IMG/VR virus record: IMGVR_UViG_3300030116_000761
Coordinates: 1-32,812 of that record
Length of the DNA: 32,812 bases
Strand: one strand, 5' to 3'
Origin: a virus
Positions 24,172-25,829 of the stretch are shown here, one piece after another; the first letter of the stretch is position 1, and each line of letters opens with the position of its first letter. The translations under genes were made by a program, and so were the position numbers. The notes below the pieces were generated by a model. It had not been told where the DNA came from. It searched no databases and saw nothing but the letters and a program-made list of their open reading frames with translations.

Positions 24172-24510
24172 ATGGCAGATAAAATATATATTAATCTTAT
24201 GCCTAATCCAAAAAAACAAGCGGGTGATAATCAACCAGCTTTTGTTGCACCAAAAAATCCTAAGTATCCAGATAAAAACTGGACAATAGGAACAAAAATT
24301 GGTGAGACATGGTATAACCAAGCCGCCTTTGAGTCTGCAGATATGGAGACAGGTGAGCCTAACGGGGGGATCACAGTGATACTTACGCCGAATGAAGGTA
24401 GTGGTAAAGCTGCGGGTAATACCAGACCTAATTACCAACAAAAATCTTTTGGAGGAAACAACTTTCAAAAGAGAGGAAATTTTGGTAATAAACCAAACTA
24501 TAGATACTAA
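24172..24510 (+). CDS. SSB-like single-stranded DNA-binding protein
   Basis: 112 residues. The first 85 are beta-rich with aromatic residues (WTIGTKIGETWYNQAAFES, GGITVILTP), as in a small OB-fold. The C-terminal tail is Gly/Asn/Arg/Phe/Tyr-rich (SFGGNNFQKRGNFGNK) and ends NYRY, unlike the acidic tip of bacterial SSB. The gene starts 8 bases after the annealing-protein stop, with AAGGAGAA before the ATG. SSB function is inferred from composition and operon position. Confidence 0.55.
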   Translation: MADKIYINLMPNPKKQAGDNQPAFVAPKNPKYPDKNWTIGTKIGETWYNQAAFESADMETGEPNGGITVILTPNEGSGKAAGNTRPNYQQKSFGGNNFQKRGNFGNKPNYRY

Positions 24511-24534
24511 CCTAGTAATATAAGTATCTATAAT

Positions 24535-24620
24535 GAAACAGGCGGGGGATTTTAGTCATGGCTCACAAAGCCGTTCCTTTCGGACTAAACCTTTCTAGTT
24601 GTTTTGCTCCTGCCTGTTTC
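24535..24620 (+). ncRNA. Structured RNA element candidate
   Basis: The outer stem pairs 24535-24548 with 24607-24620: 14 bp with two G-U pairs that would be mismatches on the other strand, so it is plus-strand RNA. Inside, TTTAGTC (24551-24557) pairs with GACTAAA (24583-24589), and GGCT/AGCC (24560-24563 with 24569-24572) caps a CACAA loop. GACTA could instead pair with TAGTT downstream, an alternative fold. A perfect TATAAT at 24529-24534 lies just before it. There is no T-run. It lies 11 bases before a gene lacking a Shine-Dalgarno sequence, so a cis-regulator or small RNA fits. I do not recognise a known class. Confidence 0.65.
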
Positions 24621-24631
24621 GCTAAAACAAT

Positions 24632-24907
24632 ATGAATACAATAGATTTAGAAAAAGAAATTAAGAAGAAACTCCGAGAGCAAAAAGATAAGGAGTATGGG
24701 GATTACAAAGAGAATATGGGATTGATTGCTTTTCTTTGGTCCGTTATATTAAAAGATAAATTAAAATCAGATGTCAAACCTTACGAAGCAGCAAACATGA
24801 TGGTGATGTTAAAGATGTTAAGAACGACCCGAAAGTATAAAGCAGACACCTACCTAGATGCAAGTATTTATTTAGACATGGCAAGAGATTTACATAAAGA
24901 GGACTAG
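24632..24907 (+). CDS. DUF6378-like helical protein
   Basis: 91 residues, all helical. EYGDYKENMGLIAFLWSVIL near residue 22, then PYEAANMMVMLKMLRTTRKY and a C-terminal DTYLDASIYLDMARD reproduce the YGD-ENxxxxAxLW ... MxxLKxxR ... DxxxDxxxYxxxA pattern of DUF6378 phage proteins. The all-helical acidic design recalls MazG-type nucleotide pyrophosphatases, though activity is unproven. No ribosome site is visible; the RNA element ends 11 bases before the ATG. Confidence 0.75.
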   Translation: MNTIDLEKEIKKKLREQKDKEYGDYKENMGLIAFLWSVILKDKLKSDVKPYEAANMMVMLKMLRTTRKYKADTYLDASIYLDMARDLHKED

Positions 24908-25238: not shown

Positions 25239-25283
25239 TTACATATAAAACAACTAAAAGCTGTGCAAACAGAGAAGGGTTCT

Positions 25284-25829
25284 ATGTCTCAAAATACAAA
25301 TCAAAATTTATTAGATGAATATAATTATAAGATAAACATATCTGCTTATGAAAACTTAACTGAACGAGAACGACATATTCATCAGTCTGCATTTATGACT
25401 GGATATAAACTAGGTCAAGAACACACCATCAAATCTAAAACCATTACAAAGTTTGTTTATGTCGCTAAAGGTAAAACACCTAATCAACATACTAGAACAA
25501 CTGTTTACAAAACTGCAAACCGACAAGCCGATTATATTTATAACAAAGTGTTACGTTATTATAACCGAACTCATGAAGAGATTGTTTCACCAAGAAGATT
25601 AAAAGAATATGCAGAAGTTAGATCTGTAATTATTAATTTAATTAGAGAACTCACACCTTTGTCTTTACCTGAGATTGGTAGAATCCTTGGAGGTAGAGAT
25701 CACACCACAATCTTACATCATTTGAGAATGAAGTTTGACCGCAGAAGATTTTGGAGTGTACACAATGTGACTTGGCAGCACTATGAAAAGCTATACAAAG
25801 ATTTAGAAGTAGAACTGAAAGCTCTTTAA
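25284..25829 (+). CDS. DnaA domain IV-like DNA-binding protein
   Basis: 181 residues from the ATG at 25284 (MSQNTNQNLL), which follows GAAGGG. An upstream GTG is less likely. Residues about 90-155 match the complete DnaA DNA-binding domain: VLRYYNRTHEEIVSPRRLKE, then LSLPEIGRILGG and the DnaA signature GGRDHTTILHHLRM. There is no AAA+ domain or Walker motif; the N-terminal 85 residues are unrelated and basic. It may compete with or guide host DnaA at DnaA boxes, as a replication or transcription regulator. It is last in the recombination operon and converges with the 77-aa gene, overlapping it by 3 bases at the stops. Confidence 0.85.
   Translation: MSQNTNQNLLDEYNYKINISAYENLTERERHIHQSAFMTGYKLGQEHTIKSKTITKFVYVAKGKTPNQHTRTTVYKTANRQADYIYNKVLRYYNRTHEEIVSPRRLKEYAEVRSVIINLIRELTPLSLPEIGRILGGRDHTTILHHLRMKFDRRRFWSVHNVTWQHYEKLYKDLEVELKAL

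Follow-up and report, generated by a model that had tools for sequence, protein, structure and literature searches.

The window, by which we mean the whole 32,812-nt (32.8-kb) stretch of viral DNA analyzed here, is from an HTVC010P-type pelagiphage, its terminase sharing 84-85% identity with the HTVC010P and HTVC034P enzymes. The host of pelagiphages, SAR11, is the commonest bacterium of the ocean, and this virus group is abundant. On the plus strand of the window, a Cas4-like nuclease gene and a gene at the position of the single-strand-annealing gene of isolates are followed by an SSB-like gene, a structured RNA, a DUF6378 gene (Pfam, E = 2.6e-14), a pair of small genes, and a gene encoding a DnaA C-terminal domain, an order that is nearly the same in isolates. 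The SSB-like protein has no match in Pfam, PHROG, or PDB, and its AlphaFold model is unusable (pLDDT of 50). Its C terminus shows an aromatic Y-x-F/Y pattern at the end, without the acidic tip that is typical of bacterial SSBs. The DnaA-type gene (25263-25829), which encodes the bacterial DnaA-box-binding domain and has no space for the ATPase part, lies a few genes 3' of the RNA in all the isolates examined. From the SSB-like stop codon to the start of the next gene, sequence comparison identifies a conserved RNA element (24499-24631), whose parts are listed in Table 1.

Table 1. Features at the junction between the SSB-like and DUF6378 genes (positions in the window)
Feature	Position	Strand	Remarks
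SSB-like gene	24172-24510	+	112 aa; putative SSB; RNA directly 3' in 131/131 distinct relatives
P0 hairpin	24499-24532	+	24499-24508 with 24523-24532; encloses stop codon (24508-24510); predicted in the window
P1, 5' strand	24535-24548	+	14 bp, two G-U; fold and covariation
U-tract	24550-24553	+	UUUU directly after P1 5' strand; partly paired in P2 (window group)
P2 and P3	24551-24589	+	P2, 24551-24557 with 24583-24589; P3, 24558-24563 with 24569-24574
CCUUUC motif	24576-24581	+	Predicted unpaired in every group
Candidate pseudoknot, 5' strand	24598-24605	+	GUUGUUUU
P1, 3' strand	24607-24620	+	Fold and covariation
Candidate pseudoknot, 3' strand	24624-24631	+	AAAACAAU; directly 5' of the DUF6378 start codon (24632)
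DUF6378 gene	24632-24907	+	Neighbor 3' of the RNA, outside the conserved unit

The interval 24535-24620 has a minimum free energy of -32.3 kcal/mol, compared with -19.7 ± 3.0 for shuffled versions (z of -4.14, with 0/200 shuffles as good), while a longer interval including the upstream hairpin (24497-24634) reaches a z of -5.16. The folds of relatives have z values of -2.7 to -5.8. An earlier, sequence-only reading of this locus had described a 14-bp outer stem with two G-U pairs, a 7-bp inner stem, and a 4-bp hairpin. The first two, P1 and P2, are borne out by sequence and folding, and the hairpin, P3, actually has 6 bp. A competing helix (GACTA with TAGTT) that had been put forward as a switch can be drawn in the window but is broken in close relatives (CAGTTG in L003, GAAGTTG in L005). 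Three features had been missed, namely P0, the candidate pseudoknot, and the exposed CCUUUC motif. The 5' arm of P0 consists of the final SSB-like codons through the stop, and 55 distinct sequences display 36 different P0 helices, with a score of 20.7 vs. 14.9 when shuffled. P1 is an 11-15-bp stem, unusually GC-rich for an AT-rich genome, whereas P2 and P3 are variable inner stems, replaced or missing in other groups, with matching replacements in L009, L011, and L037.

In every P1 loop there is a U-tract, a CCUUUC-type motif that is predicted to be unpaired, and, directly before the 3' strand of P1, GUUUU. A check for the conserved ligand-binding core of a metabolite riboswitch showed no conservation outside the stems other than these three. 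The U-tract, shortened in the subgroup of the window, has 5-8 U in other groups. The pyrimidine motif, of the C-Y-UUUC type in 131/131 sequences, is kept though the surrounding scaffold changes, since it is predicted to lie in a bulge in the window group, in a hairpin loop in the HTVC010P group, and in a terminal loop in the HTVC204P group. HTVC010P-group loci (L051, L072, L105, and others) have an extra conserved unpaired CGAAUCAU between the U-tract and the inner hairpin.

Homologs were searched for in IMG/VR using the DUF6378 protein and then the SSB-like protein, and in isolates by tblastn; blastn of the phage collection gave no match, the isolates being recovered by protein search. This yielded 131 distinct sequences from IMG/VR and nine isolates (HTVC010P, HTVC034P, Greip, Skadi, Lederberg, and others), a count that represents samples (the best 80 loci, or the matches listed, per collection scan) rather than a census and includes many closely related sequences. 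In each of the 131 distinct readable sequences, the SSB-like gene is followed by an element with a P1 of 10 bp or more and a motif of the CCUUUC type, and 130 of these sequences also scored for the U-tract and the U-run before the 3' strand of P1. In the exception, L125, the script took a spurious longer helix, and GGTGTGGCGAGG/CCTTGCCATACC are present by eye. A covariance model built from the HTVC010P group alone (A4, without the window) finds the window at 24533-24634 (E = 1.8e-4 in 107 kb) and also matches other groups at the same place. A wider model has exactly one strong match in 27/27 HTVC010P-type records. HTVC019P, HTVC011P, and HTVC008M show no strong match. Among the matches listed, the minimal motif with a long P1 helix occurs only beside the SSB-like gene or at incomplete contig ends; one match in L254, a chance-like 10-bp A/U helix, was set aside by eye. 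No gathering-score match to Rfam 15 (4227 models, riboswitches and ribosomal leaders included) was found for the window and 14 relatives, and relaxed E-values gave only unrelated chance-level matches, in agreement with the sequence-only view of a structured phage RNA of no known class.

A lack of covarying pairs in homologous intervals had been named as grounds for refutation, and covariation is in fact strong. In the window group (7 sequences), four P1 pairs have changed on both sides, with a covariation score above all 500 shuffles, and the same is true of four P1 pairs in the HTVC010P group (17 sequences), again above all 500 shuffles. When all groups are considered (33 sequences), 13/13 P1 pairs show compensatory double changes, with pairing in 96.5% of cells. 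Covariation is 0.830, compared with 0.333 after shuffling (0/500) and no more than 0.21 after sliding, in an alignment that was fitted to P1 and is therefore biased in its favor. In an alignment-free check, P1 strands pair at 98.4% with their own partners vs. 64% with strands swapped between sequences, the former value also being favored since each P1 was picked as the best helix. G-U pairs greatly outnumber A-C mismatches in P1 (75 vs. 2), and therefore the selected molecule is the plus-strand RNA. We therefore rejected a minus-strand RNA or a DNA-level hairpin; the minus-strand fold is also weaker (z of -2.9). Since the shape is retained while the letters change, the RNA almost certainly has a job, and from these comparisons we consider the existence of a functional RNA element to be close to certain.

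What kind of element is it? The sequence-only reading had offered either a riboswitch-like controller or a phage small RNA, and had placed a start near 24541 from a TATAAT directly upstream. The TATAAT is there in the window (24529-24534), which, with the compact and stable fold that follows it, speaks for a small RNA. However, there is no -35-like site, and the TATAAT is explained by the 3' arm of P0, with which it overlaps, and is not kept in relatives. Because part of P0 is formed by the coding end of the SSB-like gene and relatives share no conserved promoter, a cis-acting element is favored, and a free-standing small RNA with its own promoter is very unlikely. We rejected, as having practically no chance, a small protein of 25 aa that would start at an ATG at 24559 and whose stop codon would overlap the next start codon. 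In the window this frame is open and its ATG is preceded, at a distance of 8 nt, by a G-rich stretch, but a 1-nt deletion shifts it in the close relatives L004-L008, other groups have no such frame, and changes track pairing rather than codons. No tRNA or tmRNA was found. An intrinsic terminator was also discarded, with P1 being followed by an A-rich strand (no U-run) and a scan showing no terminator-like site in the interval. The same scan bears on a transcriptional element, such as a put- or nut-like antitermination or RNA-processing site in the middle of the early operon. Two adjacent hairpins in single copy within an early-type operon would suit such an element, but it would have no terminator-like site in the interval to act on, it lies mid-operon and not near a promoter, and it matches no known motif, which makes this reading quite unlikely.

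The gene 3' of the RNA is most often DUF3310 (52) or DUF6378 (34), with single cases of Mom-like, C5-methylase, Dam, and unassigned genes. The site directly 3' of the RNA is thus a gene-exchange site (L003/L036, L009/L034, L037, L125, and L127), where Mom-like, C5-methylase, Dam, or unassigned methyltransferase-looking genes replace DUF6378/DUF3310 without loss of the RNA or its A-rich strand. No such RNA was found in front of DUF6378 genes located elsewhere (L001, L003, and L009). Since the SSB-like gene always comes with the RNA while the downstream gene is swapped, we assign the element, on comparative grounds, to the terminal part of the SSB-like cistron. A role at the SSB junction is thereby supported and a metabolite riboswitch for the next gene disfavored, so that of the two original proposals the riboswitch-like controller is weakened as well.

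The A-rich strand 3' of P1 is the partner in the candidate pseudoknot. In most groups, GUUUU can pair with it in an H-type arrangement beside the next start codon, with a mean score of 12.8 vs. 9.7 when shuffled and 11.6 when partners are swapped. The helix has 7-10 bp in most sequences of the window and HTVC010P groups; HTVC204P-group helices are mostly of 4-5 bp, and none was seen in the Skadi group. Because it is short or absent in some groups, and given the score with swapped partners, we consider the pseudoknot to be probable in the window but not universal. The A-rich strand is kept where the downstream gene has been exchanged (L003, L037, and L127) and is therefore tied to the RNA and not to that gene. 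In L074, L121, and L139, this strand is AAATAAATGA rather than AAAACAA, and no open frame of at least 40 aa starts within the first 45 nt after P1. In L054 2857 (HTVC100P_gp19), the annotated start is a TTG within the 3' arm of P1, and the ATG after the A-rich strand is likelier.

A translational gate operated by the pseudoknot alone, which would block the 30S subunit when GUUUU and the A-rich strand are closed and free it when they open, is a rather doubtful alternative, a small-molecule riboswitch being a special case of it. In the window, as in most groups, the A-rich strand does adjoin the start codon, and the distance from P1 to the start is 9-20 nt in 91/91 leaders measured, just 44/91 of which have a Shine-Dalgarno-like motif. 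The DUF6378 gene of the window has none (GCTAAAACAAT-ATG), as the sequence-only reading had noted. Nevertheless, short gaps are expected anyway in compact genomes, the pseudoknot is not universal, and the next gene family varies (DUF3310, DUF6378, Mom-like, and methyltransferases), so there is no common metabolite logic.

Association with the upstream gene is also what would be expected of a passive mRNA 3'-stability element, in which P0 and P1, alone or together with the pseudoknot, would block 3'-to-5' exonucleases so that the part of the message for the nuclease, annealing protein, and SSB-like protein outlasts the rest. REP hairpins stabilize the upstream message in this manner between some bacterial cistrons, and the GC-rich P1 stem, unusual in an AT-rich genome, also speaks for this reading. 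A plain roadblock, however, needs no conserved CCUUUC, U-tract, and GUUUU single strands, and we view this explanation as possible but less probable than the one that follows.

We propose that the RNA is most likely a cis-acting control element at the SSB junction, which probably controls the messages on both sides. As for its mechanism, our leading reading, to which we give a probability of roughly 40% from sequence and analogy, is a protein-binding site for post-transcriptional control at the junction between the SSB-like gene and the next. P1 would hold up pyrimidine- and U-rich single strands as a docking site, the most plausible docking protein being the SSB-like protein itself. Protein binding, or pseudoknot closure, would mask the A-rich leader in front of the following cistron and shield the SSB-like message at its 3' end, and the expression of the two neighbors would be set apart as the protein accumulates. 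Autogenous translational repression from an element 3' of a protein's own gene would be unusual, which counts against this mechanism. The SSB-like protein is nonetheless our first docking candidate because of the analogy with gp32 of T4 and RB69, which binds an mRNA pseudoknot and the adjacent A/U-rich leader (PMC535899). Repression can also reach another gene, as M13 gp5 represses the mRNA of a gene other than its own (PMC535899). Two base-pairing roles for CCUUUC were considered and dismissed: as an anti-Shine-Dalgarno for the next gene, it is kept even where that gene has no Shine-Dalgarno, and with the AAGGAG of the SSB-like gene itself, complementarity is partial and there is no conserved GAAAGG site nearby.

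Literature searches turned up no description of the pelagiphage RNA and no expression data for an HTVC010P-type phage; a published transcriptome study covers HTVC022P and HTVC027P, which are of other types (PMC12753301). Present once per genome examined and kept by compensatory evolution, the RNA is a noncoding signal of the kind that gene-based annotation of marine viruses misses. Functional data on this phage group are almost nonexistent, and the RNA offers an entry point to its post-transcriptional control. Because host-phage pairs are in culture, its function is directly testable.

How does this RNA compare to known systems? In ENE-type and telomerase-type elements, two U-rich strands and an A-rich strand form U-A-U triple helices. 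In the HTVC010P and HTVC204P groups, the pelagiphage RNA has two stem-held U-rich strands and then an A-rich strand, an order that would allow such triples, but its U-tract is partly in P2 in the window group and the A-strand is weak or missing in Skadi. A speculative and unlikely reading is that P1 holds two U-rich strands clamping the A-rich strand or an oligo(A) tail, which would lock the SSB-like message at its 3' end, with a protein being recruited by CCUUUC. If true, this would be, to our knowledge, the first ENE-type stability element described in viruses of bacteria. REP and other intercistronic stability hairpins are stable hairpins directly after a cistron within an operon, which is also the case of the pelagiphage RNA. 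Unlike these repeats, it has a single copy per genome, conserved unpaired motifs, and a stop-codon hairpin.

The gene 32 operator of T4 and RB69, a phage RNA pseudoknot by an A/U-rich leader and start codon and linked to an SSB gene (PMC535899), resembles the candidate arrangement at the pelagiphage junction. It precedes gene 32 itself, whereas the pelagiphage RNA is 3' of the SSB-like gene and before unrelated genes; the gp32 pseudoknot is ~28 nt, whereas the pelagiphage element has 60-110 nt, a long P1, and a conserved pyrimidine motif. We treat the two as analogous. The leader motif of rpsB (ribosomal protein S2) in SAR11 and other bacteria is also alike, with a long P1, variable or absent inner stems, and a pseudoknot, a candidate feature in the pelagiphage RNA, between the inner junction and the strand after P1, near the start codon (PMC2704228). 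That likeness is one of topology only: the rpsB motif is located before rpsB rather than before a phage gene, the two are not connected by any Rfam match, and, as far as tested, their conserved motifs are different. The survey of host RNAs in SAR11 from 2009 that includes this motif makes no mention of phages (PMC2704228). On the basis of these sequence comparisons, we consider the pelagiphage RNA to represent a new RNA family whose kind is familiar, namely a structured element that acts in cis in phage mRNA.
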